This document shows, one piece after another, positions 10,501-54,600 of a stretch of 64,000 nt of DNA; position 1 is the first letter of the stretch; every line of letters begins with the position of its first letter. The translations under genes were made by a program, and so were the position numbers. The notes below the pieces were generated by a model. That model was not told where the DNA came from, made no database searches, and worked only from the letters and a program-made list of their open reading frames with translations. Source of the stretch: Astropecten irregularis (lineage: Eukaryota > Echinodermata > Asteroidea > Paxillosida > Astropectinidae); contig OZ020258.1 of assembly GCA_963971285.1 (NCBI GenBank), positions 10,002,614-10,066,613 on the forward strand, given 5' to 3'.

Positions 10501-13500
10501 AAAATGCACATCTTTGCAAATCCTATATGCGCCCTTTAAGGAATAATAACCATGTAATGAATCATTTATCATGGCATTAAATTGATAAAGTTCTATGTTT
10601 GGATCAGTCAATCCATGATGATTTGTTTGCGTGGGCATTTATTAAGTCCTTGCATTAACAAAATTGGAATTTAATCAGATTACTTTGACTACATGCCTAT
10701 ATGATTGCTGTCTACACAATCCTAATACTGTATAATGTTATGCTATATGTAAAGTGAATGGGTAATGAAGTTTCTGCATTGATTTTACATTGTGATGTAT
10801 TTGCAGATGTACGTCAGCATGAGCAAACAGAGAAAGTTGAATGACTTCCTTTTAACGGTCACCAAGTAAGTTTGACGTTTCTCAATTAAAATTGAAGAAA
10901 AGGTATCCCTAGCTGCTGCCGCGCGGACGCGCGAAATTGACCAATCAACATCCTCCGTCATGATCCTGACGGAAATGTTCTCAAAACAGATCTGATTGGC
11001 TGATATGCCGCGTTGCATAAAATTTGCATACACACGCATGTATCAGACGTTTGTACGTAGTGACACGGAGTAGAATGGGTGATACTCAGACTAGTCTGAA
11101 AGTTCATGGCTTGCAGAATCCAATTGTTTCATCACTCAATCATATCTGTCTCATAAAGTTTGCAGAAACCAGGGCAATAGATTATTAATAATTCCAAAAT
11201 CATGATCACATCAGTTGCATTGCTTCATTCCTTATAATTTTGATTGGAAGTAATTTATGAAATTTTATTGAAAAAAATATCTTGGCGGTGTGTGTGTGGT
11301 TTCATGGCTTCTGACTACCAAATAAACAGATGAAAAGATAATTGACTATAGTAGTTACCACCAACGTACGGCTGGATAGCTCAGATGGCAGAGCGCCTGT
11401 ACAGTATTCAGGAGGTCGCCGGTTCGAATCCCTCTCCAATTAATTTTTCTTTGTTCACTTTTCAATGACTTTAAATTCAGTCAGTTTCCCTTGTGGTTAT
11501 TTGATGATTATATTAATTAAAAAGCCGTATCCTCTTTGAGTGATCCCCCATGTACTGTTCCCAGGTTGCAGCATTGCTTCGCGTATCGGTGAATAATCCC
11601 TGGGATATGGTGGTGTGTGCGTGGTTTCATGGCTTCTGACTGCCAAACGAACAAAGATAATTGACTATTGGTGTCACCCCCAACGTAGGGCTGGATAGCT
11701 CCATTAGGAGAGCGCCTGTACAGTATTCAGGAGATCGCCGGTTCGAATCCCTCTCCCGTCAATTTTTCTTTGTTCAATTGTCAATGAAAAATATCATTCT
11801 AATATGTGCTTTGTGCAATGTTGTAAATTGTAAATGACCTCTGAGTTGACCTGCTTCGTCATATTTGTATATTTGTCTTTTTCAGGTCTGTTTTTCAAGA
11901 TATAATCAGCATGGACACGGTCATCATGAAAATCATGGTAGGCATCATTATACACACACACATTCCAACAGTGCATATGAGTACACATGGGCAGGTGCAC
12001 AACGTCCAACTTTAAATATCTTTGTGAAATGTGCATTTTTGGTGCATTTTTAGCACTGTGTGTTTTTACTGTGCATGCACTTGGACTTGGACTCATACTT
12101 TTGTACTCGGACTCGGCCCTGTACTCTGCCTTGAATGTACTCGTACTTGAAACTCTGGACTTGGACTCGTCAACAATGTACTCGGACTCGGCCGAGTACT
12201 CAGACCTTGAAGTACCAGGGATGAAATTTCTCAGATTCAAATCTGATTTCAGTTTCTTTTGTTTTGGATTTCAGATTTTTTTTCCTCACAGGCTGTTTTC
12301 CAAAAATATAGGAGATTTTCAGATTTCAGACTTTTTATGCTCCCTGTCAGCTGTTTTCAGACATTTTTATCATTGGTCAATCTCATCCCTGAAGTACTCG
12401 GAGTACTCTGTACTGGGATCTGAGGACTCGACTCCAACACTGAAGAAAATCAATAGGATTGGTCATAAGCCATGATGAAAATACCCAGAACAGAAAGATC
12501 CTACTTCATTCAAATCTCCAGTATGGCAATTACAATGGAATGAACGGTCGAAGATCATAATGCCCTCTGTAATCCTATTTGTCTGAACGAAGGTCAGGAA
12601 GAGATTATGCAGTTTCATCCTATTCAAAAAACAATTTTTTTGTCGATATATTGTCCTTTCTTCCGGCTTTGTATGAGAAAAAATATTGCATACTGAGTAG
12701 TTGCTCTATGTAGGCTTAAAAATTCAATGTCTAGGAGAATAAAAGCATGGACATTTATTTGTCATGTTGACAACCTTGGGAGAACTTTTCATGTAATTTT
12801 TGGCGAGCTGCTGCGAAGCCATTCGTCGGGCCAAAACTAAAACAGAAATGTTCACAGATTTACGTATAACTTACAGGGTATGAAGATGGTGGTGGTAGAA
12901 ACATACCGTTACAATTTTTCCGCATGAAATGGTGTATTTATCCAGAAATTAGTAAAACAACGACCGAAAATCTTTTTGATCTTTTAAAAGATCAAAAATA
13001 AAAGAGAAAAGACTTAAGAAATACTGTGGTCGTTTTTTACTTTTTTCTCAAAAAGTGGGCATCGTATGGGACTGACATTTTCACAGATGACTCAGTGTAA
13101 CTGTATCTGCCTTGATATTTTTGCCCATGAATCTGCATTTCTTCGAAAAAATCCCAAAAGTATGATATTACCTGTAACTGATCTGTTGGAAGTAAATTGC
13201 TTCATTATTTTTGTATTGTTTATACAGAATTTTGCGCAGAAGTTGGTTTCAGCAGATCGTGCTTCATTGTTTCTTGTTGATAACAAAACCAGGGAACTAT
13301 ATGCCAGGATTTTTGACGTTGGTAACGGCATAGGAATGCAGGTGGTGGAAAAGGAACAAAAAGAAATCAGGTACAAATAAACTAACCACATTCTTGGCAG
13401 GCGCGGTTCTAGAGCCAATATTTTGTGGGGGGCGTGCTAGAAGAGCTCAAACATTTCTTGGGGGGCTAGAAGACCAACATTTTTTGGGGGGGCTAGAATA

Positions 13501-16500
13501 CCAACATTTCTTTTTTGGGCTAGACCATTTGCACGTGACCTCATCTTCTAACATTGCTTCTGCTGTCTTATTAGGTGTAGCAACCTGTAGCCCTACACAA
13601 CGCGTTTTTCAAGTAATTGGCACGTTATAACTGAAAAGATCCAGCAGATCCCCCTGCAGCCCCCCGTGGAACTGCACCTGTTTCTTGCTACTGTTATTTT
13701 TTAAAGAACTATTTTATGTGTAATTGCAAGATGTGCGAATGATATAGAAGTGCGAAAGTACAAACGATTATTACTTGGTGTTTCGATCCGCAAACCGATC
13801 CACATATTTTATGTATACTTAGTTGATTTGAATAATAGCATTTTGTTTTTGTGATGACAATGAGTACATTTTCAATTAAAGAGAAGAATGTAGTACAAGT
13901 GGAATGCCGCTATAACGAACATGGCAGGATGTACTGATAATGTGGTCATTCGTTATAGTGATTTAAAGAACCATATTTGGCATGTACTGTACATCACAAA
14001 AATTGGGAGCCAAATGTTTGGTATAGCGATGTCCTTTATAGCGGCGCTCCGCTGTATTGGTGCATTATGGAGTCGTATTTGGATAAATTATAAACAAATG
14101 GGTTTGGATTTGTGTATTATTATTTTAGGTTTTCCATGGATAAAGGTGTTGCTGGCCACGTTGCTTCTACCGGTCAAGTGCTGAATATTCCCGATGCTTA
14201 CTTAGACGATCGTTTCAACAGGTTGGTGTTTTTTTTTGCTATTTTGATATTTTTGCCCATGAATCTGTATTTCTTTGACAAAAACCAAAGTATGAAACTA
14301 CCTTTAATAACAACAGTGTATTATTAGAAAAGAACAACAAAATGTCCATGTGTTGTGTATCACTTGTGATTGTTCTTTAGCTGCTGTTCGCTGACCATGA
14401 ATATCAAATGAAATTTTTTGTTTGTTTTATTGGGCAAGACATTTTCGTGCTAAGCAAAAATGTTTGTGATTAGCAGCTCCATGAAATTGGCCAATGAACA
14501 CACGTTCAGATGCAGCATATATCAACATCATTTAAGGGGTATCATTGAGGCGACCTCACACGTCGTCCGTTCTGAAGTGGTTAACTAGTTTCTGTGTTCT
14601 ACCGTGTCTACAATATTGAAGTAAATTGTGGGCAGCCGTGTCAGTCTATTGAAATGATCAAGAAAATTAGGGTAGCACTTAAAGACTAACTAGGAGATGT
14701 AATGCTACATTGGTTTACATGTATACCAGTTTATATACTCATGTTGATGATGCTCCACTTCATTACATCTGATGAAGTAGTTTGTTACTACGAAAGCTTA
14801 AAATGCAGTTTTTCTCCTCGTTAGTCTTTAAGTGCTACCCTAATTTTCTGTGTCTACAATGTATTAAATAATTTAAGGAGGTAATGCTTCTTGAAACTAA
14901 TGTCATTTCAAATATTTGTATTTTATGCATTTACAGGGATGTCGATCAGCAGACAGGATATGTCACGAAGACTATTTTGTGTATGCCAATATACAACAGG
15001 GGAAAGTAAATACATTTTGTTTTTTAAAGCAGTTTCATTATTAATGAGAATTTTGGCCCTTTTCCAAACCCCGGCTCTGGCTCTGGCTCTGGCTAGGGCT
15101 AGGGCTAGGGCTAGGGCTACGGCTACGGCTACGGCTACGGCTACGGCTATGGCTACGGCTACGGCTAGGGCTAGGGCTACGGCTACGGCTAGGGCTAGGG
15201 CTACGGGCTCGGGCTAGGGCTAGGGCTAGGGCTACGGCTACGGCTATTATATAATCATCAAGGGAAACTGACTGAATTATAAGTCATTGAAAGGTGAACA
15301 AAGAATAATTAAATAGAGCGGGATTCAAACCGGCAAATAATGTTGGAAGATATTTTTTGATGTTCGATGTTCCTCTTGCGCCGCCTTTCTTTGTCATCTT
15401 GCGCATGATATGTATAGTTCATTTTACACTGTGAATAATGTAATGAGTGCCCTAAGTGTCATGTGTCATGGCGACCACCGCATCTCGCGCTGGACTGGGA
15501 TACGAAACCACACTATACGTGCTATGATATGTGCTAGTATTCTTGATGAGAAAAGAGAATCAGTCATTGTAACAAAACCTTGCTAATACTAATGGTACAA
15601 GTGTTTGTACTTTGTAATAACCTAACCTGCAATCTATGGATTCATCTCCTGCACAGTGTGATCGGTGTTGTTCAGATGGTAAATAAGAAGCAAGGTCATT
15701 TTACCAAAGCTGATGAGCAAGCCTTTGAGACTTTTGCTGTGTTTTGTGGCTTGGCTCTGCATCATGCTAAGGTGAGTCAACCCTGTTAAAACAGGAAGTT
15801 ATATAGATATGATAGATCGGTTTGCGGGAACACCATGTAAGAATCATTCGTCCTTTTGCATTTCTGTTTTATTTTTCTCACTGGCTTCTCGTAAGGTCTC
15901 AACGTTTCGACTAGCCTGCTCTTATCCTCATCAGGAGACCATCATTGACTCATAATGAGTCCTGTCCACAATTGAGTCATAAGTTTCCAGTCTCACAGTG
16001 TTTCAAAGTGATGTATTCTTTTTTTGGTTAGAGTTGGTAGGGCTTGACACGTTTCGATCCTAGCAGGATCTTTATTGAAGGCTATAGCCTTTGATAAAGA
16101 TCCTGCTAGGATCGAAACGTGTCAGGGGCCGATTTCACTATTACGCTTTGCGATCATCGTAACGCCCTAAGCAGAAAATTGCCATGCAAAGTAGCGAACG
16201 ATTTCCCGTTCAGCGATGGATTTGGGTGTTAAAATGATCGCAAAGCGTTAGTGAAATGGGCCCCAGGCCCTCCCAACTCTAAGCATTTGATAAATTTCAG
16301 GTCATATTGGCTGATGAGCAGTTTGCAGCAGTTTATTACTTGTATTCTCTTTTTGCAATGTTATATTTCCAATTCTAGCTTTATGACAAGATTCATCGAT
16401 CGGAACAGAAACACAAAGTGGCATTGGAAGTTCTTAGTTATCATAGCCAGTGTCATGAAGAAGATCTTGAAAGCCTGAAGAAGGTAGCCTTACCAGATCC

Positions 16501-19500
16501 CATGCCACCTCTAGCAAGGTAGGTCAACAGGTCAAGAGCTAGACATTTGTTTTGAAAACCTTTGGGTACGTTCAGATTGCCTTTTATTTAAAACCAATGG
16601 GAGACTTTTGAGAACTGGTCTTCAAGTCAACAGCACACGCGCACGCAATTGTGAGCATGCGAGCGTTGTTTTGCGCCTGTGCTGTTGACTTGAAGACCGG
16701 TTCTCAAAAGTCTCCCATTGAGTTAAACCGCTCGGCAACTGCGGGGGTAAGTCGTAAGTTAAAATTCTGTTGCGGGTATCAAAATAGCTCTTTTGGCTGC
16801 GGTTCTGTAGTAGATTCTCTGGTTTGAAAAGGAAAACAGAGCTTCAGTTTCAGTGAAAACCACAACCTATATTTTCAGCATATGGATGACAGAGCTGGAG
16901 CCTGAGCCTAAGCCTCCGTTTCGTAAACTCCCCATTAATTTTGATATACCGGTAACTCTATGGCAAAATCCAACCTTTGAAAAACAGTGTTTTGTTTGGC
17001 CATTGTACTAAACTGTTATTAACTGTTATTCCTTGCTTATTTTGATGTTTTCGTTAGGTTCGACTTCTCTCCATGGGGACTGGATGAGGAGGCTAAACCT
17101 CTCTATGTACTCTGCATGTTCCAGGAAATGTTCACTCTCAATGGGTAAGCTCTCATGTATCAATGACTACGTCTACCCATCATGTGCTTAGCTATTCAAG
17201 TTTTGAATTTAACAGAGGCCATGGCCTTCGTTGCCCTGGTTCTTGGCCTTGGTGCCCCCTTCAAATATTTCCATAGACATTATGATTTTCCAATGGAAGT
17301 GCCCCTTGCAATGGAAAAGTGGCCTTGCCCCTTACAAAACCAAATTTAATGCCTGGCTATTAATGACTCTGTTTACTCTTAATACATTTTCAACAAAAAG
17401 TAATGATTTTATCCAGTGAATTGTATGATTTGTACACATTTGTATGAAGGTATTTTTCATGTATGTTACACGAATTACTTGCTTGAAAACCATAAATGCT
17501 ATAGATCTTTCTTTTGCAACGTCACAGCCCAAGTTTTTGCCAACCAAGATGGCGGAAACTATGATCAAAAACGATTTTGGTCACTGGTTTTACTCTTTTC
17601 TGGATAAAAACAGCATTTCAGGAGGAAAAATAAATTTTTCCTCCTGAAATATGTTTCTTCCATCAACATCTTTATACCCTGTAATTTATAGGTAAATCTG
17701 TGAAGATTTCTGTTTCGGTACGCTACCAAAGTATGATACTACCTTCAATGTCCAGCATAAATATTCAAGTTTAAGGTGATAGACCAATAGTATGATCAAT
17801 GGTAGTATGTGTACAGAGATTTTGATACATGTATGTACATCCTCATTGTAAAATCATTTAATTCTTCAATGCACCACCACTATATGCACACACTGCATTG
17901 TTGCATAATAATGAACACCGAACCACAAGTGGAAGACCATCGTCAGAGTTTATAAGTTGTAACTTTCATTGAAAATTGTCAAAATAATTATTGTTTTGAT
18001 TTATGTATGATGAACAGAACATGCTTTGAGGATGTTTATGAAAGAAAACAAACCAAAAACCTATAACTGGGGTGCGTTACGCTTGCGCGAACATACACGA
18101 ACATGTTCGCACCGTTTGCGTTACGCTTGGATTTTGTAGTGGAACGCACACGCAACAAACTGCGAGCATGTGTTGCGTACTGCGTCCATCTTTCATTCAA
18201 TGTAGTTAGCCAACTTCAGCAAACACCTCCTCTACACCGTTATCTATGTTTAATAGGCGAACGTTGTGTGCGTGTTTGGCGAACAGTGCGTTTCGGTTTG
18301 AAAACGGTGGCGCACATTGTGCGCCGTGTGCGTAGTTAGCTGGAGTGGAGCGCACGCACCCCTGGCTAATGTAAACAAAAATCATAATTCAAACAAAATC
18401 AAATAGGGAAATCAGCTGCTGCCAAAGCTACACACTTTACCAAACCAGGGGCCGATTTCACTAAAGTCATATTTTGCGATCATCGCTAGAACACATGTTA
18501 TGAGATTGTTACTTTGCGATCAATTTTCTGTTTAGTGATGGATTTGGGCATTAGCGATGATCGCAAAGCTTGGTTGATTTCATAAAACACTCATCATGTT
18601 GACGTTTATATTCGAATCAATCCTTATTGTTATACCCCTTTATCAGAAAGAGGTTTTAAGCAAACTGTGATGTCACAATGAGAGATAACTATGGCGATAG
18701 CAGTGACATTTAAGTTCAGATTAATCTTAGGGCGTTTACGAAACGGAGGCTTAGGCTCAATCTCAGGCTCCAGTTCTGTCATCCATATGCTGAAAACATA
18801 GGTTGTGGTTTTTCATTGAAGCTGAAGCTCTGTTTTCCTTTTCAAACCAGAGAATCTACTTCCGAACCGCAGCCAAAAGTGTTGCGTTTTTTTGGGACAC
18901 GCTGTACGCTGTAGACTGTGTTGTGTATGTCTTCATCATCATGCTGTATATATCATTCATTCTTCTCATTTTGTTTTCACAGTGATGAACATACTGACAG
19001 CTCAGAGAGGTTAGACTGATTATTCATCATTGAATTGATGATACCTTTTAGTATTTTGTAATTGGTCATTAGTTTGTCATACATGTATATAACCATGTAG
19101 GGTACGTTCAGACAAAAATCACCGTTTTTATCCCGCTCGGTTTTAATAACAAATTGAGTCTGGATGCTCTAAAGCGGTTTTATTTTTAAAACTGATCGGT
19201 TTTATTCGCTGCTAAAACCCTGAAGTTGAAACTGCTCGGGAGGAGGGTTTAGCGCTTAAATCTGATTGAGTTTTATACTGCTAAAACGCTGCTGGGACAA
19301 TAACTTTCCGACATCCTGTTTCAGCGCAGCAAAGCCTGGCAGCTGGGTTACGTAACACCTGTTGTGCCGCACTTGTTTATATTCAGCAACAGAGTTTTAG
19401 CTTTACGACTTACCCCCAGCGGTTGCCGGGCGGTTGAACTCAATTGGTTTTAAATAAAAGGCTGTCTGAACGTACCCCTAGACGTGAAAATAGTATATAA

Positions 19501-22500: not shown

Positions 22501-25500
22501 CAAACCCCAACTAATGGGAGACTTTGGAGAACCAGTCTTCAAGTCAACAGCGCACGTGCACGCACGCACAATACAACTCGCGCGTGCTCACAATTGCACA
22601 AGCATGGTTTGCGCGTGCGCTGTTGACTCGAGACCGACTCTCCAAAAGTCTCCCATTGCAGTCTATTGGGGCATTCAGACACAGTACCTAAAAGAGGTCT
22701 ACTAGACTCTTCGGTTTAAACTGAAAAGGGTCTACCTCCTTGTGTCTGAACGGTCTACGATAGACTGTTTTGGGTGCGGAAACTTAGACATCCGAGGAGG
22801 GACGGTCTAGACTTTGTAGACCTGTCTACAAAATGGGCCTTTAAGGTATGATTGGCAAAGGTCACAGAACAGCATTCACACTTTTATGTACATGAAATAG
22901 TAAATCTGTGAAAATTTGAGCTCTGTTTTGATCGTACCCCGAGATCAAAACTATTTTCAGTCTTTGTTTTAAAACTAATTTCTGGATAAATACAGCATTT
23001 CAGTCGGAAATATTTTAACGGTATGTTTCTACCAGCACCATCTTCAAACCCTAAAAATATAACAACCCAAAGTTCATGCCATCAAGTCCAGTGTGTGATG
23101 AATAAGACAGTTACCGTAACAGAGCTGTGGATTTTATTTCTGACCTTGGTGAAATATACCGTAACTATACATGTATACATGGGCGTAGATCTAGGGGGGT
23201 TGCAACCCCCCCAGGTTTTCACTTTTTATATATATATAAAATGATTTTGTGCACAAACGTATATGGAAGTATGACCCAGCTACACGATCGCATTTTTTCC
23301 ATGTTCTTTGTTGTTTTTATATATTACGGACTAATGAAATCTATAAATAATTATCAACTTTCCATTTGTATTCTTGCATGTGTGTAATTTATAATAAAGT
23401 AATGCTAAAATGCAAAATGTCAATACAAGTAATAAACTGCTCATCAACCAAAATAGTGACCTGAAATTTATAAATTGCTTGGAGTTAGAAGAGCCTCGAG
23501 CTGACATGTTTCGATCCTAGCAGGATCTTTATGGAAGGCTTTATATTCAGCCTTCAATAAAGATCCTGCTAGGATCGAAATGTGTCAGGCCCTCCTAACT
23601 CCAAGCATTTTATGAAATGCAATTGGTGTGACAGGACGGGATTTCAATACCAGGCTCAAAGAACACAGAGCACATGGCAGCATTGAGACCTTACAAGAAG
23701 TACGAACGATATAGAAGTGCGAAAGTATGAACGATTCTTACATGGTGTTTACGCAAACCGATCCACATACCATAATGCAAAAGCTTGAACTTATCGAAGG
23801 AACTGGATCAAATTTGTTTGTGTCATGTCAGTAGATATTTATGTGTCTGTCAGAGCATGGAGCTATCTCCATGGTCAGAGGAATGGCTTTTATGGGACAA
23901 TTTCCCCTGCCTTCAACTGTTCAAGTAGCAGATCAAGATCTGCTGAGTCTATACCAGTTGCAAATTAGGCTGGCCCTTCACTGACGTGGATGAGCACAGC
24001 ATACTCGGTGCTTGTGAGGGCACGTGAAAAAAATCACATCCATTTCATTTTCTCTTTTTCTGTTTTGCGATCTTTAAATTATGGTGAAAAAATGGTGAAC
24101 TGATTAGTGTCCTGATCCATTGCTGCAGTTGGAGATTGCAACTAGATTTGTTAAGCCCTGTCCACACTGGACTTTTTTTGAAGGGCAAAGTTACCGAGAC
24201 ACTTGGTACTTTACCCATTTTAAGACCAGTGCGGACATCTCAGGAAGTCTTCCTCTCGGTTACTTTTCCCGACCCGCGCGGGCATTCCTACTGGCCAACT
24301 TCTGCCCAGGAAGAATGGGAGACTTTTGGAGCGGGCTGTTGATAGAGGGCAGCAAACTACCAGTCTCCTGAAAACTTTTGTACACGCTTTTAAGTACGGC
24401 AGTTGTCGAAAAAAAACTCTCCAAAAGACGCAGGGAAATGCTGTGAACATTCAGTTTCAGGCCATTTATAAACAATTTTTAGATTGACATTTCCGCCCAC
24501 CCCAATTTTAATCCCCAAAAACACAAAGTGAGGTGAAATTCTTACGTTTGGCGAGGAAGAAATGTGGTAGGTCTCGTTTGCCAAAGTAAAAACTTTGTGC
24601 ACAAAACACTATGCTGTTTGCCGTTGGCCACCATGATTGTTTGTAACTCGCCCTTTTGATGGCCAATCTTAACATATTCTGCATTTGCGGTCTTTTGGAA
24701 CTCATGTCCTTAGCTCCCCTGCCACCACAACCGGACACAGTATGTGCCATGCATTCTCATGCGATTATTTTACGCCGGTTACTAATAGCCACAATAAACT
24801 CATTGTGTTATTTCTCCCTATACACACCGATCCAACAGCACGGAATACCACCCGCCATTAATGCGGTGTCCCCGCCCGCCTTTTGTGTGTATAATACACG
24901 AATCCGACTTCCCATTCATGTAATTGGCCCTGCGGTGTATAATAGGACATACACCCTGCAGTATAGAGTGCGGCGGAGCGGAAATTCTTTTGTTGCCACT
25001 CAGTGGGCACAAGAGGCCGGCGGGGACAGTGGACACCGCAGTAATGGCGGACAGTATGTCGTACAGTCTGATCTGTCTATAGCAATGACTGCATGTCAGT
25101 ATGTAGACATTTCTATAACATTTGAATCGTCTTGTTTTATTCACAGATTTGACTATGAGGATTTGTGTCGCTTCATCCTGACGGTTCGGAAGAATTATCG
25201 GAAGGTTCCCTATCATAATTGGACGCATGCATTTTCAGTTGCTCATAGTGTGTACACCATCATTAAGACATGTGAACATGAAACATTTACTCCAGTTGAG
25301 GTAAGCTAAAAAAACAAAAACACTCTTTTCATACCAGGGGCCGATTTCACTAACGCTTTGCGATAATTGTAAAGCCCAAATCCATCGCTTAACGGAAAAT
25401 TGCTATGCAAAGTAGCGATCGATTTTCTGTTTAGCGATTTATTTGGGCTTTACGATGATAAGTGAAATCTGCCCCTGGACCCAATTTCATGAAGCTTGCT

Positions 25501-28500
25501 AAGCACAAAAATTTGCTTAGCACAAAAGTGTCATGCATGCCCAATAAAACAAAACCACGTTAAAAATTTCATTTGATATCCATGGTCAGTGAACAACATC
25601 CAAAGAACAATCACAAGCGATGCACAACACATGGATATTTGGTTGTTAACTTGGTTTTCACCCCTTGCGTCGAGGTCAGTTCGCCCCGGGGATGATGAGC
25701 GCTCTAGTGGGAAAAGGCTTTATGGTTAGCAGGGGGCGTCTGTTCACTCTGTTAACTGCAGAGCAAACCTTATTATGGCATTTGTTATTGTGACCCCTTC
25801 GCTCCCTGCTAAGAAATGGTTATGAAAACGTCAGGCAAAATTCCACAATTGAGAGCAATTGTATATAATGTAATGAATTCATATTTTATTGATTCATTGG
25901 AAATGAATTGTTAATTTATTTATATTTAATCATCAAATAACCACAAGGTTACTGACTGAATTTTAAGTCATTGAAAAGTTACCAAATTAAAATTGACTGG
26001 AGTGGGATTCAAACCAGCGACCTCCTGAATACTGTACAGGCGGTCAATACCAACTAAGCTATCCAGCCCTACGTTGGTGGTGTCCCCCACAGTCAATTAT
26101 CTTACGACATTGTGTGCATGGTTTCATGGCTTCTGACTGCCAAACGAACAAAGATAATTTATATTTTCTTAATTAGTACAACTCCAACTATGCACAAATT
26201 GATGTCTGCGTTAAATGTGGAGTATACAGTATTTGCTGACTTACAAATATGTAACTTGTTTATAATATTGGATGATATTTAGTCACTCTTTGAACCTGTT
26301 TCATTGCTTGTATAGAGTCTTGCGCTGTTTGTGGCATGCCTGTGTCATGATCTTGATCATCGAGGCAAGAATAATTCCTTTATGGTCAACAATGCCACGC
26401 CGTTAGCAGCTGTGTACTCCACGTCCACAATGGAACACCATCACTTTAACATGACTATCACCATTCTTCAGGTATTCTTCTTCCTTTTTTTTTTTCATTT
26501 TCTTTTAAAAGGTAATATCATACTTTGGTTGTTGTCAAAGAAGTGCAGATTCATGGGCAAAAATATCAAGGAAGATGCAGTAACAGTCATCTGTGAAATT
26601 TGCAGTCCCGTACGGTGCCCACTTTTTGAGAAAACATTTGAAAAACGCCCACAGTATTCCAAGTATTTCGTACACTTCTCTCAGTATTTAAGTCTTATCA
26701 CCGTTATTTTTTACCTTTAAAAGATCAAAATCAGCCGCATATCGGGGTGCAAATTCTCATTGTAAATTTTCAACATTCTCATGTTGTTGCGCCCTGAAAC
26801 GCCTTTGATGTTCATTCTAACTTGTGAATAATGATCCATGCTTTTGACCTTTGTTTATTTTGTAACGGGCAGAATGATGGACACAACATCTTCAAGCATT
26901 TGTCATCCGAGGAATACAAACAGGTGTTGAGCGACATAAGACACGCCATTTTAGCAACAGACCTGGCTCTTTTCTTCGGAAATAAAGCAAAATTGAAGGC
27001 CATCGTTGAAGCTGGCCAGTTCTCATGGGAGAGCCAGGAACACAGGTGGGATAGGTTCGAATGTGATGAGGAGAGTATAGAGGGAATTATAGAATGCAAT
27101 CAGCAACTCACTTGGGCGTGGATGTGTTGAGAGTTTAGAGGGAATTATAGAATGCAATCAGCAACTCACTTGGGCGTGGATGTGATGAGAGTATAGAGGG
27201 AATTATAGATTGCAATCCGCTACTCACTTGGGCGTGGATGTGATGAGAGTATAGAGGGAATTATAGAATGCAATCAGCAACTCACTTGGGCGTGGATGTG
27301 ATGAGAGTATAGAGGGAATTATAGAATGCAATCAGCAACTCACTTGGGCGTTGATGTGATGAGAGTATAGAGGGAATTATAGAATGCAATCAACTCACTT
27401 GGGCGTGGATGTGATGAGAGTATAGAGGGAATTATAGAATGCAATCAGCAACTCACTTGGGCGTGGATGTGATGAGAGTATAGAGGGAATTATAGAATGC
27501 AATCAACTCACTTGGGCGTGGATGTGATGAGAGTATAGAGGGAATTATAGAATGCAATCAACTCACTTGGGTGTGGATGTGATGAGAGTATAAAGGGAAT
27601 TATAGAATGCAATCAACAACTCACTTGGGTGTGGATGTGATGAGAGTATAGAGGGAATTATAGAATGCAATCAACAACTCACTTGGGTGTGGATGTGATG
27701 AGAGTATAGAGGGAATTATAGAATGCAATCAACAACTCACTTGGGTGTGGATGTGATGAGAGTATAGAGGGAATTATAGAATGCAATCAACAACTCACTT
27801 GGGTGTGGATGTGATGAGAGTATAGAGGGAATTATAGAATGCAATCAACAACTCACTTGGGTGTGGATGTGATGAGAGTATAGAGGGAATTATAGAATGC
27901 AATCAACAACTCACTTGGGTGTGGATGTGATGAGAGTAAAGAGGGAATTATAGAATGCATTTATAGGACAGTTGCGTATTATGTTTTTGTTGACCTTTTT
28001 TTGTAATAGTTGTAAATCATTTCTACATGTTTAATTCCTTGCATGTTTTATATGTGTATTGAGCTTTCATTTGGGTTGACAATTATTCTTGTGCTATATT
28101 ATGACATCGTCTCTATTTGATAGATGCATTACAAGTTTGTTGTTGGAGATAACCCAGTCGGAAGATTCTATGAAACCTGTATAGATGACATGAAAACAAA
28201 CTCTGTTCATTGCATTTGGTGATGTGATTGCACAATGGGAGACTTTGGAGCATCGGTATTCAAGTCAACAGCGCACGCGCACAACAGCACGCGCATACTC
28301 ACAAGCGAGCATGCTCACAATTGCGCGAGCATGCTCAGAGATAGCAAAAATAGACTTCAGTCGACGTCTCAAAAGTCTCCCATTGTGGAGCTTTAATTAC
28401 TATGAAGGATGAAGTGATTTCAAACCTTACGAATACACACGTTTATCAGTTCTTGATCTTGGCCACAGATTTATTAATTGTTGTGTCATTTACATGGTGT

Positions 28501-31500
28501 TTATAACTGTTGAGAGTTGCACGTTCAGTTGTGCAGCACTCTGTCCAGGGGTCGATTTCACGAAGCCCTACGATCGATCGTAACTCGAGTTACGAAGGAT
28601 AACCCATCGTAGAGGGCCTATGTTACGTAGGGCTGCAATGCATTATAAGTCCTACAGTTGAAAACAAAGATTATATAGCGCTACGCGCAAGATGGAGAAC
28701 TCATCTATTTACAATAAATAATAGGTTTCAATCGAATTCGGGGCAAAATGTTGCCTAACACTCCTCTTTTCTTTGATTAAATCTTCCAGCCGCCATACGT
28801 CCCGTGTACAAACTACTCACTATTTGCACACCAGAATGGCGGATCGCGACCTCCATACAAATTAACACGCGCCCTATGGTCAATTAAAACGTGCCCTATG
28901 GTCAGTTCTCCATCTTCCGTTTAGCGCTATATAATCTTTGATTGAAAGTATAAAGTTATGATGAGTTTGGTGAAATCGACCCCTGATGTCATTTGTGTAT
29001 GTAGTGTTATTTGTCTGGGTGTTTGTGTATGTGCGTGTTTGTGTGTAGATGTTTATTTTTATGTTTTGCTGAATTGTTGTTTTTCTTACTAATACTTTCT
29101 TGGTGTCAATGTATCAAGCGCTTTGATTAACCTTAACAACCAACAACTAACAGCCATTTTGATTTGCATTGCTTCCTGACATTTGTTGGCAACTCTCTCT
29201 CTCTCTTTTCACCCTCCCCTTCCCTTGCCCCGCCCCTTCGTGTCCTACATCTTTGTTTTTCCTTCTACCACCCCCACCCCAACCCTCTGTATTTTCATAT
29301 TGAATGTTGGTCTGTTTCCTTTTTTTTGTATTGCCATGGTGACGTTTGTTGTGGCATCTTGTATTTTGTTCGCAAACCTGTTTCCGTGACAAACCATTTT
29401 ATTAGATCATTTGTGAGAGCACTGACCATGACTGCATGTGATTTGGCGGCCAACACTAAGCCGTGGCTGATTCAACAGCAAACCGTTAAAGTTATCTTTG
29501 ACGAGTTTTATCAACAGGTATGCATGTTTGTCTATTTTTTATTTTGATTTTTTATCATCAGCCATGTATAGGATTTCAACTTGCGAAGTTGCAGCATCAA
29601 GTTTAATTATATGAAGAACTGTAATATGGGAAATGAATATAGTTTATCTAAAGGCCTTTTCACACGACGCTTTATAAAAAAAACTCTCAACCATTGAGAT
29701 ATTTTCTCATGGTTGCGAAATCTTACAAAACGGTTTAAGCTGGCCGTTTTTGCGTCCTTTCACACGGCACAGTGTAACATTTCGCATGCCTCCCTTGAGA
29801 CGGAATGCGGGTAAACAGTAACACTGCTAGTACCATCATAACGCTGAGGTTGCGCGTGAAGCGCGCGGTCTGCAAAGGCCATGATACACATAGAAAACAC
29901 ATGCATGCGCATTGGAAAGCACTTCACAAGGGACCTCAAGGATTCAGCAGGGACGTCGGTCACTCTCAAGCATTGGTGTCCTTTCACAGGATGACACTTT
30001 TTTAAGATTTCGCAACCGTGAGAGAATGTCTCAATGGTTGAGAGTTTTTTTGGCGTCGTGTGAAAAGGCCTTAATAGTCTTTGCAGTGATACCCTCTGGT
30101 CTGCCTTGCATATTTTACCACATATATTTTACAAATATACATGTACATGCGTTTAAAGGTGGTATCATACTTTGGTACCATACCGAAACAGAAATCTTCA
30201 CAGATATATAACTTACGGGGTATGAAGATGCCGACGGTAGAATACTATTCTGTCATATTTTTATCCATTGCCATTGATGAATATATTAGATTGATAATGT
30301 ATCAATGGTAGATACATAGCACTATCCTTACCAAAAAAATATTAACTGATCCACTCGTGTGATTTTTGTACAATGGTATGCCACTATAATGAATATGCCG
30401 GGATGCACAGAAATTGTTTGTTATAGTGGTCGTTAGTTATAGTGGACAATGTTCAACACGCCTATCCATTGTACATTAATAAATTGGGAGCCGATTGGGC
30501 TTTGGCGCTCGTGACGTCACATTCAGAACTTCGGACAAGCAAATCGCACGTGGCCACGTTATCTTACACGAAAAACGTTGTCACATTTGTCCGAACATCC
30601 GGGTAAGCTGTCGATAACATAGGGTGTATTCTATAAATAGCTCGAGCGTGGAGCCCTATTAGGATGAGGTTCCTTATAGCCAAATGTTCGGTATCGCGAC
30701 GTTCGTTATAGTGGCGTTCCACTGTATCTGTATTTGTTGATATCTATCTTTGTTTGCATGGCATCTGTGGATCCTGTTATGTATGCCTGTTGATTTTGAA
30801 AATACGAAAAACACGGCCAGCAGACCAGGCGCGGTTCTAGAGCCCCCAATATTTTTAGGGGCTAGAAGAGCCAAAAAAATGTTTTGGGGGCTAGAAGACG
30901 AACATTTTTTTTGGGGGGGGGGGAGGGGGGGGGGCTGGACCCTTCAAACGTGATGTCATCTTCTAACATTTTCTTCTGCTGTCTCATTGGCTGCATTCGA
31001 GCGGTTACTCCCGGTAACACGTGTGATGCGCGCGCAATACTCTCCAGTGCAGGAGTATACTCCCCATATCTGGAGAGTATACTCTCGCTGACCCGAGTGT
31101 CGTATACTCCGGCCGTAATTCGAGCGCTCAGGAGTATACTCGTGTTAACACGAGTAGGTGCAGAAAAGCAATCTTTAGCCCTACACAGTGCGTTTGTCGA
31201 GTAATTGACGCGTAATAACTAAAAAGATCCAGTATTTTTTTCCCAATTTCCAGCATTTTTTTTTTTAAATTGCATTATATTTTTGGGGGGCTAGACAAAA
31301 TTTGGGGGGGGGGGGCTGGGGGCTATAGCCCCCCCGTAGAACCGCGCCTAGCTGCAGCAGACAGAATGAATGAACGCTCATACATGACACGATACAGACG
31401 TCAGGTTGACACGACCTCTAACCTCTAACTAACCTCTAACATAATTTCCTAAACTCACTCTTGTTTCTTGTGCCGCAAATAGTTTGTCATGCCCAGCACT

Positions 31501-34500
31501 TAACCTTTTTGTTGTACGTCGCACTCACCTTTAGAATGAATGCATCCAATTGCAAGGATGGAAATTTGTTATTTTCTGCACTTGTTTACACCAGTCACGT
31601 TCATAATAACTCACGTCATGAATGTATTAACCAAGTTTAGCACCCATGTATTCATGCATTAGTCTCAAAAGCACCTTATGTAACACTAATCAAGTTTATT
31701 CTGTACAAGAATGTTACGCTAACATGTAAGTTAATTGTTACATATGCTGCAATATTTCCTAGTCATCATCTTGGCTAAATATTGTCCTTCCATAATAATG
31801 CAGTCCTATAGGGATCTTGTTCAACGTGTGAGTTTCCCTTGTCTCTTTACGTACAATTCTTTGAAAATAACTTCAGAGTGCTGTTGAAGGCTATTGCTAT
31901 GACGGCCTGCGACCTGTGTGCTGTATGCAAACCCTTTGATATTCAACGACAAGTGGCTAATGAGTGCTTCGAGGAATTTTATAGCCAGGTAGAAAGATGA
32001 TGCAATATCATTCTAAAATACAAAAACTAACCAATTAACGTATTAACCATACAATCAATTGTTATTCACAACATTTTTATTCTGCGTACAAGCCAGTGTT
32101 GTAGTACTCGTACTCGGTACTTGCACTCGAGTACTACTCGAGTACCGTTTTCCGGGTACTCCTACTCGCACTCGAATGTCCAAATACTCGCACTCGCCTT
32201 TGGTACTTGTACTCGGGCTACAAAGTACTTGGAACTCGACATCCAAAAATTGTACTCAAGCATCTACTTACTCGTACTCGAAAAAGAGTACTCGGTAAAA
32301 AAATCTGTTCAGTTAAAAGTTCGTGGATCTGAGCATTCTAACAACAATCGAATTTAGCATATAGAAATTACATGCTTATGAATAGTTGAGTCTGGAAAAT
32401 AGACTTCGCTGTGCCTGGTGTTTACGTTGTTGTAAACTTGTAACGTATTACTGTGTTGCAACGCATAGCCACGTGTGTTGACTACCATTTTTAGATCAGC
32501 TACAGCGCACCTTGTTCGTTTTTTTTTTTCCGGAAGATAAGTACTTAATTGTACTCGTACTTGAAAGATAAGTATTTGTACTCGTACTCGGGTGCACAAG
32601 TACTTGTACTCGGAAACCAGTACTTGTACTCGATTGGCAAAGTACTCGACCTGTCTTGGTACTTGACAGTCAAAGTACGCGGCAGTACTTGGTACTCTGA
32701 AAAAAGTACTCGACTACAACACTGGTACAAGCTAGTGCCACAAAAACTCTCTTTCTTCAAGTCACGCAGATGCATCCATTTGCTTTGAAGAAATTGTTTC
32801 AGGAAGCGTACTTGAATGTAAAGTCAATATGTATTTAAAAAGTGCACCAAGGTGATGAATTGTCCTGAATTTACAACATTTTCTTCAGTGTGTTGTTCAC
32901 TTTTAAATACAACTTGTAATATGCATTTATAATCAGTGGTGGATTTCGCAAAACACTGCAGGTAATGTCATACTTTGGTTTTTGTCAAAGAAATGCAGAT
33001 TCTTGAGCACAATTGCCATGGGAGATACAGTAACAGTCATATTTGAAATTTTCAGTCCCATACGCTGCCCACTTTTAGAGAAAACAGTTTTAAAAAACGG
33101 TATCTTTAAAATCTTTTCATCGTTATTTTTTATCTTTAAAAGATCAAAATTGTTTTTGGTCTTTGGTTTTACATTTCCCTGGATTAATATAGCATTGCAG
33201 GCAAAAACAAATTAATTGTATGTTTCTACCATCACCATCTTCATACCTTGTAAGTTATAGGTAAATCTGTGAACATTTGTGTTTCGGTATGCTCCAAAAA
33301 TATCATAGTACCTTTAAGGACTACTGTATTAAAGTACAAAAGCAAAACAGCAGTTTGATTTAAGATGATTCATGTAAAATATTACTAGATAAATTCATTC
33401 TGAATTTACATGTAGTTTACTCCTGCTTTTTACTCCTTTTTCCATCCTAAAAAACAGATTTACCTATAACTATACAGGGTAAAAAGATGGTGATGGTAGA
33501 AACATACCGTTAACATTTTCTGCCTGAAATACTGTATTTATCCAGAAAAGAGTAAAATCAGTGACCAAAATTATTTTTGATCTTTTAAAGATCAGAAATA
33601 AAAAAGAGAAAAGAAACCGTGGCTGTTTTTCACTGTTTTCTCAAAAAGAGGGCACCGTATGGGACTGAAATTTTCACAGATGACTGTTACTGTATCTTCC
33701 TTGATATTTTTGCCCATGAATCTGTATTTCTTTGACAAGAACCAAAGTATGATATTGCCTTTAACATGGCTTATGTTGTGCGTAATGGTTGGACATAGGA
33801 TGAGGTTCTCAACATGGCTCATGGGGTGCGTAATGGTTGGACATAGGATGAGGTTCTCAACATGGCTCATGGGGTGTGTAATGGTTGGACATAGGATGAG
33901 GTTCTCAACATGGCTCATGGGGTGTGTAATGGTTGGACATAGGATGAGGTTCTCAACATGGCTCATGGGGTGTGTAATGGTTGGACATAGGATGAGGTTC
34001 TCAACATGGCTCATGGGGTGTGTAATGGTTGGACATAGGATGAGGTTCTCAACATGGCTCATGGGGTGCGTAATGGTTGGACATAGGATGAGGTTCTCAA
34101 CATGGCTCATGAGGTGTGTAATGGTTGCACATAGGATGAGGTTCTCAACATGGCTCATGAGGTGCGTAATGGTTGGACATAGGATGAGGTTCTCAACATG
34201 GCTCATGAGGTGTGTAATGGTTGCACATAGGATGAGGTTCTCAACATGGCTCATGAGGTGCGTAATGGTTGGACATAGGATGAGGTTCTCAACATGGCTC
34301 ATGGGGTGCGTATTGGTTGGACATAGGATGAGGTTCTCAACATGGCTCATGGGGTGCGTAATGGTTGGACATAGGATGAGGTTCTCAACATGGCTCATGA
34401 GGTGCTTAATGGTTGGACATAGGATGAGGCTCTCAACATGACTCATGGGGTGCGTAATGGTTGGACATAGGATGAGGTTCTCAACATGGCTCATGGGGTG

Positions 34501-37500
34501 CGTAATGGTTGGACATAGGATGAGGTTCTCAACATGACTCATGGGGTGCGTAATGGTTGGACATAGGATGAGGTTCTCAACATGGCTCATGGGGTGCGTA
34601 ATGGTTGTACATAGGATGAGGTTCTCAACATGACTCATGGGGTGTGTCATGGTTCCTCATAGGATGAGGTTCTCAACATGGCTCATGGGGTGTGTCATGG
34701 TTCCTTATAGGATGAGGTTCTCAACATGGCTCATGGGGTGCGTAATGGTTGTACATAGGATGAGGTTCTCAACATGACTCATGGGGTGCGTAACGGTTGT
34801 ACATAGGATGAGGTTCTCAACATGGCTCATGGGGTGCGTAATGGTTGTACATAGGATGAGGTTCTCAACATGGCTCATGGGGTGCGTAATGGTTGGACAT
34901 AGGATGAGGTTCTCAACATGGCTCATGGGGTGCGTAATGGTTGTACATAGGATGAGGTTCTCAACATGGCTCATGGGGTGCGTAATGGTTGGACATAGGA
35001 TGAGGTTCTCAACATGGCTCATGGGGTGCGTAATGGTTGGACATAGGATGAGGTTCTCAACATGGTTCACGGGGTGCGTAATGGTTGGACATAGGATGAG
35101 GTTCTCAACATGGCTCATGGGGTGCGTAATGGTTGGACATAGGATGAGGTTCTCAACATGGCTCATGGGATGCGTAATGGTTGGACATAGGATGAGGTTC
35201 TCAACATGGCTCATGGGGTGCGTAATGGTTGTACATAGGATGAGGTTCTCAACATGGCTCATGGGGTGCGTAATGGTTGTACATAGGATGAGGTTCTCAA
35301 CATGGCTCATGGGGTGCGTAATGGTTGTACATAGGATGAGGTTCTCAACATGGCTCATGGGGTGCGTAATGGTTGGACATAGGATGAGGTTCTCAACATG
35401 GCTCATGGGGTGCGTAATGGTTGTACATAGGATGAGGTTCTCAACATGGCTCATGGGGTGCGTAATGGTTGGACATAGGATGAGGTTCTCAACATGGCTC
35501 ATGGGGTGCGTAATGGTTGGACATAGGATGAGGTTCTCAACATGGTTCACGGGGTGCGTAATGGTTGGACATAGGATGAGGTTCTCAACATGGCTCATGG
35601 GGTGCGTAATGGTTGGACATAGGATGAGGTTCTCAACATGGCTCATGGGATGCGTAATGGTTGGACATAGGATGAGGTTCTCAACATGGCTCATGGGGTG
35701 CATAATGGTTGGACATAGGATGAGGTTCTCAACATGGCTCATGGGGTGCGTAATGGTTGGACATAGGATGAGGTTCTCAACATGGCTCATGGGGTGCGTT
35801 AATGGTTGGACATAGGATGAGGTTCTCAATATGGCTCATGAGGTGTGTAATGGTTGGACATAGGATGAGGTTCTCAATATGGCTCATGAGGTGTGTAATG
35901 GTTGGACATAGGATGAGGTTCTCAACATGGCTCATGGGGTGTGTAATGGTTGGACATAGGATGAGGTTCTCAACATGGCGTATGAGGTGTGTAATGGTTC
36001 CTCATAGGATGAGGTTCTCAACATGGCTCATGGCGTGCGTAATGGTTCCACACAGTATGCCAGCCAAAACTTCTTGTGAATGTTATGCTCAGCAAACCAT
36101 GGCAGAATATTAGTAAAAAGCAGTAAACATCACACAAAGATTTGGCTCGCGCACATTGTTTGCGCACATTGTTTGTAGGATTTTGCTCTTCGATTTGAAG
36201 AATAAACCCTTGGTCGGCAGGTTTGCGACTTGTATAACTGTGTGGCGTTCTGCCGGTGACATAGCAAGCTTTTTCGTTGCGAAAAGTGTGTTCCTAAATT
36301 GTGGGTCTAAAAAACCTCCTTTTTTACGTACAATATGTTTTTTTAGCACAAACAATGATAGACATGTTTTATGACAATACAGATGTGTTTAACTTCGTAT
36401 GAGTTTTGATTTCAGGTAACCATTAAGCGGCTCTATGAAATTGGCTCCAGGTCAATGGTTTACAACTTGTTTGCATGTATTCTTTATAGTCACTAGGATG
36501 AATGTTCGTAGACATCTATGGGCATCATTCAGTGGGACTTTTTTGTTTTGGGACAGAATTTGCAAGCTTATGAAAGCATCGTCCCAATTAGCATTTAGTG
36601 TTGATATTGAGTGTATAGCGAGCAAATCCTGTTGCACCTTGTAGAATAGTGACGCCTTAGACATAAATAATCTATAGACCGACAGCGTGTATGGAAATCA
36701 ACGTCTGGATACTATAATCGTGACGGCACCCGTCTATTGCCAAACCATGGGCAAAAAAAGTTACTTTTATGCACAATTGAATAGGGAGGATTGATTCAAA
36801 TGGGAAATTTTGGATGAAAACGCATTCATATGCATTTTTAACCAATTGGATCATTTAAGTATACGGTATGTCACATACCATTGCATGTATATGCACAGTA
36901 ATGTATGTTTTTCTCAAATAATGGAAAGATTGAATGCAAACTTTCGCGTTTGAATTTTAATCTTGACTTATTAGAGGGAACTAGCACGAGATAACGTGCG
37001 CAACTGGCCTCTTTCTGAATCTTTTGTCAGATTTCGAACATAAAACTATTGTTTACGTGCGCCCCGCGCAGCACGCTTGCCATGTGACGCACAATTTTGC
37101 CCATGGTTTTTTAAGATGGCGGCGTTGCTGAAATTACACTCTGGCACCCGCTAATGTGCCTCTATAGGTTATTTATGGGCGTTTACGAAACGGAGGCTTA
37201 GGCACTGGCTCCAGCTCTGACATCCATATGCTGAAAATATAGGTTGTGGTGTTTCATTAAAGTTCACTGAAGCTGAAACTCTGTTTTTCCTTTTCAAACC
37301 AGAGAATCTACTTCAGAACCGCAGCCAAAAGCCTCTATTTTGATACCAAGTTATTTCAGAATGGATTCACGAAATGGAGCCGGAGCGTGAGCCTCCGTTT
37401 TCGTAAACGCCCTATTTCTATGATTGAAACAGCATGCTATGGCGCCTTCTATGAATCCAGAATGATCATTGCAGTCATGGTTTGACATATATGCAAAGAA

Positions 37501-51600: not shown

Positions 51601-54600
51601 GTTAATCCACAGACTGGAGTAGCTACACAGAGATTGTAGGTATAATGTACATGTAACAAATGGTCCATTTAAATTGTATGCACTCTGAAAGTACCAGTAC
51701 ATTGTACTGTTTATGGATTGTGTGGTTGTATGCCTCCATATTTTACAATACCTCAGTACCATATAATGTATGGATTCCATAGGTTAGAATCATTCAATAG
51801 GCACGTTGTTTCACACACACCAAAAAAAAAGCGTGACTATTTGGGTCGTGATTTAAATCACAACGCAAATACGCTATTTGTGTGTGGACACAAATAAGCA
51901 CTTCAAATCACGATTATTTGTGTCTGCACACAAATTATTGCGACTATTTGGGATGTGATTTGAATCGCGACCCAAATAGGTCGTGCTTTTTTGGTGTGTG
52001 TGAACATGATGGCAAACAAAATGTCATTCTCGAGTTAACTTTAATACTTCTGGAATCCATGTTTATATGCACATGCATGCAGTTTTACAAATTGTAATCC
52101 TACATGTAGCATATTTTCTCCAATGAATTTGCCAAAGACAGTATGCAGGCGCCCCCATTAATGATCAGAATTGAATAATTCATTGTACTACTACCTGTAC
52201 TTTATATTGCGTGCAGTTTAGCGTTTTAACTGGGGAAGCTGTGCTGGGAATGTGAAAAACCATTGCTGTCTTTTCATGTCAAGTTCAGTTCTGCATAAAT
52301 AACAAATATACCCAGGCTGTTTCCATGGTCATTTACCTGTTTTACTATAGCATGTACTATAAACATGGCGTGCTGTATCTTTTCGTGGTATTCTTGACCC
52401 TGAATCTGCATTTCTTTGACAAAAACCAAAGTATGATATTATTATATTATAAGCATCGATAAGGATTTCTACCAGTATGTTTTGTTGTTTCCAAATCCTA
52501 CATACATGTAGCATAGGTACAACATCATAATTGATTTCCAACCAAAATCGACACATCATGAATGTCATTAGCAGGAAGTGTTATTTATTGATTTATTGAT
52601 TTTTACATTTGTTTCCGAACAGCTGGAAAAAAATGTATGTCTGGTTATCTACCGACCCTATAATAATTATGGAAGGTAGCAAAATGGTTTATGTAGATCT
52701 TTTCCCCCAAACAATTAAATTCAAGTGTATTTCTTGAAGATTAAATTTGATTTGCCCAATTATCTCCTTCTTCAGAAATATGCGCTGACGAGACTAGAGA
52801 AGCAGGGCTTCCATGCCGAAACCAGCCATGATTACCTGAAAAGTCGGCTGTGGTGGCTGGGCATCATGTTGATGGTAACAGGTGAAGTTGGCAACTTCAT
52901 GGCCTATGGGTTCGGACCGGCAACCGTGGTGGCCCCACTAGGCACCACCACAGTAGTAGGTAGGGACAAGAATGGCATTTTTGTTTATCCCACTTCTGAC
53001 ACCATGTACTTTTGGTTCATTGATACACATTGAATTCAGCCAATGGAGGTGGATTATCAAAAATGATAACAGGATATGCTTTTTTAATTCAGCGGCCATT
53101 AAAGCTAGACTCTTTCAACATTTGGGCAATAGAGGGCGCTAAGCCGACTATCGTTGTGAAAAACTCGCACCAGGATTCACCGTAAAATTATGCCTCCTGG
53201 AAAACCTACACAATTTATACCCATCCAGAAAAGTCCTGGAAAATGCTTTTTAGAATTTTAAAAAGAAGTCCTGAAAATTACAGTAAAATCCAAAAAAATG
53301 TTAGAATCAGAAAACGGTCGGTCTTATAAACTGCCATCAAAATTTACCACCAATAAGTCCACAATATCCCGGAAATGTCCTGGATTATTTTTCACAAGAG
53401 TGTATGAATATATGCACCCTGTTGAATGATATTGTAATTTTAGAAACAAAAAGCTCAACCGTGACCAGGGATCAATTTCATAGAGTTGCTTAGCACAAAA
53501 ATTCGTTAAGCATGACATTTCTGTCTTAGTACTGTAGTAAAAACAGGATTAACAACCAAATTTCCGTGTGTTGTGTATCATTTGCAATAGTTCTTTGGCT
53601 GTTCGCTGACCATGAATATCAAATGGAATTTTCAATGGTGGTTTGTTTTATCGGGCAAGGTATTTTTGTGCTAAGCAATTTTTTGTGCTAAGCATCTCTA
53701 TGAAATTGGCCCCAGCTGAGCTTTCCTGCCATATGCTGGCAGTGGCATAAAATGAATGGTTAATTACTCTTTTCTTACTCGTGTTGGATGATATCATACA
53801 GTAGTCTGGAGCCATGAAACCAGACACATGCTACATACAAAAATGCTGTAGTACGTGTATGAAATAAGATACCAGCAACTTTTACTAGTGTTGCAGACCT
53901 TACGTTAATTGTCAACACGAGAAACTACATGTACATGTACTGTTGTACATATATTGAGGATCACCCAAATAGAATTAATATGGCTTGAGACCCGTGTCTG
54001 ACCCTGACGTCAATGTTATTATTTATTTCAGTACAATTGAGAGAAGAAAAAACAATTGGCACCCTTAAATTACGCAAATACTCAATTCCAGTGTATTTTT
54101 AGCTGTTCCGACATTTCAGATGTCGGAACAGGTTTAGTTTTCGTTCTGGTTTTTATTATTATTATACCTTCGCACTTTTTGCTTCCATAGCTTTGTGTGA
54201 TAAGTTTGTTTATTCCTAATCTTTTATAATCTTTTTCTGGTAAGCTTATATGTGGTATCTTTTGAAAGCTTATAAGCTGAAGTTAATCCTAAGACTGAGT
54301 TTGTTAAAATTCTTAATTAATTAGTCATGTGACAGTCATTTGAATATTTAATTAGTCAATTTTGTTAGCAGCATATCTCGAGAACCACAAATGCTATGGA
54401 AATGATTCTTTTTGCAAAAGCTTTGTTATATCATGTAGTTGTGCATGCTGCCACGAAATTTAGTGTGACGTCATCATGACGTCATCAAAAAGCTGATTTT
54501 TGATTAGCAGTCTATCTCGAGAACGGTAAGTGCTACAGTAATGATTTTTTTTGCAAAAGCTTTGTTATATCATGTAGTTTTGCATTGCTCCGAAAAATGA

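Follow-up and report, generated by a model that had tools for sequence, protein, structure and literature searches.

A candidate pair of mutually exclusive exons in the catalytic domain of a PDE10-type gene of Astropecten irregularis

A predicted phosphodiesterase (PDE) gene of Astropecten irregularis (contig OZ020258.1) carries two versions of one exon of its catalytic domain, which raises the question of whether both are functional and whether they are used together or one at a time. The window, i.e., the whole stretch of DNA analyzed, comprises 64,000 bases (38.4% G+C) and contains on its + strand a multi-exon gene, the pieces of which were collinear with human PDE10A in tblastn, weakly from approximately position 600 and clearly from position 13222. 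Several GAF-B exons, with introns, were located at 13228 to 16518 (+ strand; approximate edges) by tblastn, by their flanks, and by Pfam GAF, which scored 65.5 bits for the joined upstream exons. For GAF-A only weak tblastn pieces were obtained, and for parts of the linkers no exon was located.

The catalytic exons all lie on the + strand, with AG at each start and GT at each internal end. An exon with the motif HNWTHA (25147 to 25300) and an exon with CHDLDHRG, which we take to be a metal motif (26316 to 26471), were found by tblastn with human PDE10A and delimited by their AG/GT edges; a common exon (26873 to 27045; AG/GT edges and frame) follows and supplies the AG of an Arg codon shared by the two copies. 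Copy 1 (29406 to 29517) and copy 2 (31877 to 31988) come next, followed by a common downstream exon of 81 nt (38043 to 38123; edges and frame), the last codon of which aligns with the invariant PDE glutamine, by an exon at 39074 to 39162 (tblastn with a PDE5 piece, E = 0.004; edges and frame), and by the last coding exon (40128 to 40395; open frame list and join), which contains RNLQNW and a repetitive tail and terminates the frame with the stop codon. The catalytic product was open for 343 residues to that codon whichever copy was used, and against Pfam PDEase_I the joined products scored 266.9 bits when they included copy 1 and 270.2 bits when they included copy 2. The carboxyl tail of the enzyme is encoded by a 30-nt tandem repeat (3.5 copies, 40162 to 40265).

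The initial annotation regarded the gene as PDE10-type, and this is supported for a 122-residue spliced segment compared with the solved structures in the PDB, where a PDE10A chain ranked first for both versions (118.7 and 121.1 bits for copy 1 and copy 2, respectively) among the best 60 of 150 (copy 1) and 149 (copy 2) matches. The best chain other than PDE10A, a PDE5/6 chimera, reached 98.2 and 91.9 bits with copy 1 and copy 2, respectively, and the best PDE5 chain reached 88.7 and 83.6 bits. The gene combines a GAF domain with PDEase_I. Over the 38 residues of the exon stretch, the copies shared 19 with each other, 16 (copy 1) and 14 (copy 2) with PDE10A, and 18 and 17, respectively, with PDE5, and PDE10A and PDE5 shared 13. 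Judged on this stretch alone, neither copy is nearer to PDE10A than to PDE5, which speaks against a clear PDE10 signal there, and the shared residues are too few for dating the duplication.

The anatomy of the pair was confirmed to the base: each copy is 112 nt long and lies between AG and GT, completes the same AG/A Arg codon begun by the exon at 26873 to 27045, ends in phase 0, and joins in frame to 38043. As had been claimed, the 37-residue products that follow the shared Arg have 18 residues in common (19 of 38 if the Arg is included), and both keep the Asp of MTACDL, which in PDEs serves as a ligand of the metal. When scored separately, both copies exceeded the Pfam PDEase_I cutoff of 24.8 bits (30.0 bits for copy 1 and 33.2 bits for copy 2). 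When each copy was compared with the whole window by tblastn, the other copy was found with an E value of 2e-9 and the next match had an E value of 1.0 (copy 1 as the query) or 0.74 (copy 2 as the query); no third copy was present among the best 12 matches of each copy in the 64-kb window. Among 54 open 112-nt AG...GT stretches of the same phase on both strands, the two copies included, the best other stretch matched either copy at 7 of 38 residues. Because of this low figure, the mutual E value, and the passing of the PDEase_I cutoff by both copies, a chance origin of the pair is no serious rival. It is barely credible that the copies derive from two tandem PDE genes or that one of them is an assembly artifact, and nothing in favor of this was seen: the human PDE10A probe, which did not find the last two exons, placed every catalytic piece that it found outside the pair at a single site, and only 60 of 112 nt are identical between the copies, which are therefore not a duplicated read. 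No relative was found in the viral and prokaryotic contig collections searched.

Similarity between the copies ends at the exon edges, with an in-register identity of 0.48 in one half of the exon, 0.59 in the other, and 0.22 to 0.32 in eight flanking comparisons, some of which overlap. Of the 37 codons, 13 differ between the copies at the first position, 13 at the second, and 26 at the third, so that third positions differ at twice the rate of first and second positions taken together (26/37 versus 26/74; Fisher P = 0.0006). In simulations one copy was kept constrained and the other was neutral for the last fraction of the time, at three constraint levels and three branch lengths (nine settings, 300 runs per setting), starting from a present-day copy and without insertions or deletions; the target state was an open frame that retained AG and GT and had no more than 26 differences at first and second codon positions combined. 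When the second copy evolved neutrally for its entire history, this state was reached in 0.000 of 300 runs in all nine settings. With neutrality limited to the last tenth it was reached in 0.000 to 0.500 of the runs across the nine settings, and with no neutral period in 0.043 to 1.000, the low value belonging to the weakest constraint and the longest branch. Only the longer branches fit well, because the simulated mean third-position differences, on which the runs were not conditioned, were 18.9 to 26.1 compared with 26 observed. A simpler simulation of decay in one copy gave a concordant result, passing in 0.003 to 0.005 of runs at 0.5 substitutions per site but in 0.38 to 0.42 at 0.1.

Lifelong neutral decay of one copy is thus rejected by simulation. 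Because the runs with neutrality throughout never gave the observed state, both copies were coding for most of their history, with which a late loss of one is compatible. Such a loss would make one copy a relic, i.e., an alternative exon lately out of use and still undecayed. We consider this unlikely: the simulations allow a short neutral period, and the donor of copy 2 is weaker than that of copy 1 (CAG/GTAGAA, matching 6 of 9 consensus bases, versus 7 of 9), with fewer pyrimidines before the copy 2 acceptor (9 of 18 versus 10 of 18), but a 6-of-9 donor is also present at the 26316-to-26471 exon of the same gene, and both copies are open, are bounded by AG and GT, and are recognized alone by PDEase_I, copy 2 with the slightly higher score.

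Inclusion of both copies, or of neither, had been predicted to break the frame, and both predictions held. Joining copy 1 to copy 2 led to a stop after 20 residues of the frameshifted copy 2, and skipping both led to a stop 14 residues past the joint, with the codon at the joint included in the count. Each early stop precedes at least two later junctions as well as the invariant glutamine codon, and therefore neither product would be a whole enzyme and both would be expected targets of decay. A transcript with a premature stop ahead of later junctions should be subject to nonsense-mediated decay, and such unproductive products are usual for, and not required of, mutually exclusive exons. The stop within copy 2 would also suit a second copy that serves mainly as a poison exon, included with copy 1 to shift the frame and lower PDE10 through nonsense-mediated decay; a poison exon, however, needs no conserved PDE frame, whereas both copies keep one, complete with the metal-ligand Asp, and we regard this explanation as very unlikely.

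An old tandem exon duplication in a PDE10-type gene, with both copies functional and used one at a time, is in our judgment the probable explanation (probability of roughly 0.82). The original proposal of a mutually exclusive pair arising by exon duplication is supported by the geometry, by the PDEase_I signal of each copy, and by the constraint, and we found no simpler reading that covers geometry, family signal, and constraint together. By its anatomy the pair would belong with mutually exclusive exons, the frame suggests one copy per productive transcript, and we regard the pair as a strong sequence-based prediction. We propose that a single exon of the catalytic domain underwent an ancient tandem duplication and that both copies would have been kept by selection and used singly. 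The frame would enforce exclusion at the level of the product, since both copies or neither would lead to an early stop and nonsense-mediated decay, and splice-site choice, probably through regulatory proteins acting on weak acceptors, would decide which copy is used.

As to how that choice might be made, the intron between the copies (2359 nt) is too long for steric exclusion, and none of the seven donors examined in this gene was U12-like. The donors of both copies are ordinary for the gene, the others of which match 6 to 8 of the 9 consensus bases. Pyrimidines before the acceptors of copy 1 and copy 2 are the lowest of eight acceptors (11 to 14 of 18 in the others), which would fit regulated exons, as weak evidence. 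No RNA pairing that explains exclusion was recognized among the 25 of 39 inverted repeats that were listed. Exclusion by a 94-nt inverted pair flanking copy 2 (30153 to 30242 and 33224 to 33317) was considered and rejected, the element being dispersed and hence not specific.

The duplicated exon spans MTACDL and the helix beyond. Eleven active-site residues of PDE10A are given in the available text of a review (PMC12571622), namely, Val678, Thr685, Ala689, Ile692, Tyr693, Met713, Gly725, Gln726, Phe729, Tyr730, and Trp762, and 5 of these 11 (678, 685, 689, 692, and 693) fall in the alternative exon. The numbering of our PDE10A sequence is 10 lower (668, 675, 679, 682, and 683); after a shift by 10 residues all five letters agree with that paper, and the unshifted numbers do not match. 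Lower numbering also appears in the part of PMC5748027 consulted (Tyr683 and Phe686). The letters in copy 1 and copy 2 are N and V at V678, Q and Q at T685, V and A at A689, I and C at I692, and F and F at Y693, so that the copies differ at 3 of the 5 exon-borne residues. At position 678 PDE10A has V, PDE5 has I, PDE4D has P, and PDE2 has Q, and the Asn encoded there by copy 1 is unlike all four. Tyr693, which anchors selective PDE10A inhibitors according to the portions of PMC5748027 and PMC12571622 available, is replaced by Phe in both copies. Since this exon contributes part of the base-binding pocket and 3 of its 5 active-site residues vary between the copies, exon choice is expected to change the pocket; it should reshape the base pocket and spare the metal site.

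Two enzymes would result, alike in fold and metal site but with different pockets, which would likely be tuned for cAMP versus cGMP preference, affinity, or rate. We infer from the differing residues that exon choice could shift cAMP versus cGMP preference; that one PDE10 gene in fact yields, through a swap of its base-pocket exon, two enzymes of different cyclic-nucleotide preference is a tentative and rather doubtful extension. If this were true, splicing rather than a second gene would set a cell's cAMP versus cGMP breakdown. More generally, if a cyclic-nucleotide PDE had exons of this kind, second-messenger breakdown would come under the control of splicing, a single scaffold would provide two natural forms of a drug pocket that has been studied intensively, and the residues that set cAMP and cGMP preference could be tested directly.

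Vertebrate PDE10A, the closest solved relative with either copy, has the GAF plus catalytic layout in common with the present gene, and to our knowledge it is without a second copy of this exon. Among known systems, CYP4F3 and COQ-2 come closest to the pair. The alternative exons of CYP4F3 are mutually exclusive. CYP4F3 resembles the present case in the alternative splicing of one enzyme gene, which is tissue dependent and switches the substrate (as cited in the available text of PMC7434440), and differs in being a cytochrome P450. The same text describes exons 6a and 6e of COQ-2 in helminths, annelids, and molluscs, which are mutually exclusive, remodel the enzyme core, and switch the substrate, and it regards such remodeling of a catalytic core by exon swapping as rare. 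The likeness to COQ-2 lies in mutually exclusive exons that alter an enzyme core, predicted here from sequence, whereas COQ-2 is an unrelated enzyme whose splicing and function were shown. Alternative splicing is also extensive in the PDE4 family (PMC2929239, in the part available), but its variants come from alternative start sites, and the amino end is changed rather than the catalytic pocket. The initial annotation knew of no description of such a pair in a PDE10-type gene; none was found in the open-access literature searched, nor was any PDE with mutually exclusive exons, most subscription papers lying outside that literature. In the accessible portions, "mutually exclusive" denotes a class of splicing event in PMC12189161, PMC6611504, PMC9243326, PMC9978375, and PMC12758981 and does not concern exons in PMC8809380; that of PMC12189161 deals with PDE3A isoforms and names no mutually exclusive exon pair.

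Several repeats lie in and around these introns. A dispersed repeat of approximately 90 nt is located at 30153 to 30242, and a 290-nt query centered on this region gave 24 further blastn matches in the window, 14 of which had an E value of 2e-9 or better and 1 of which came from a neighboring element. The intron downstream of copy 1 contains a foldback element (29651 to 30072), to which we assign no role; its arms measure 54 nt (93%), and its outer arms are 20 nt long and perfect. A minisatellite of 58-nt units (27067 to 27959; 15.6 copies, 96% alike) starts 21 nt past the common upstream exon, and another of 48-nt units (33763 to 36047; 47.6 copies, 96% alike), which contains long open frames on both strands, lies in the intron that separates copy 2 from the exon at 38043. 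Farther downstream, an open frame at 52725 to 53033 resembles the beginning of a NIPA-type magnesium transporter and perhaps belongs to the next gene.
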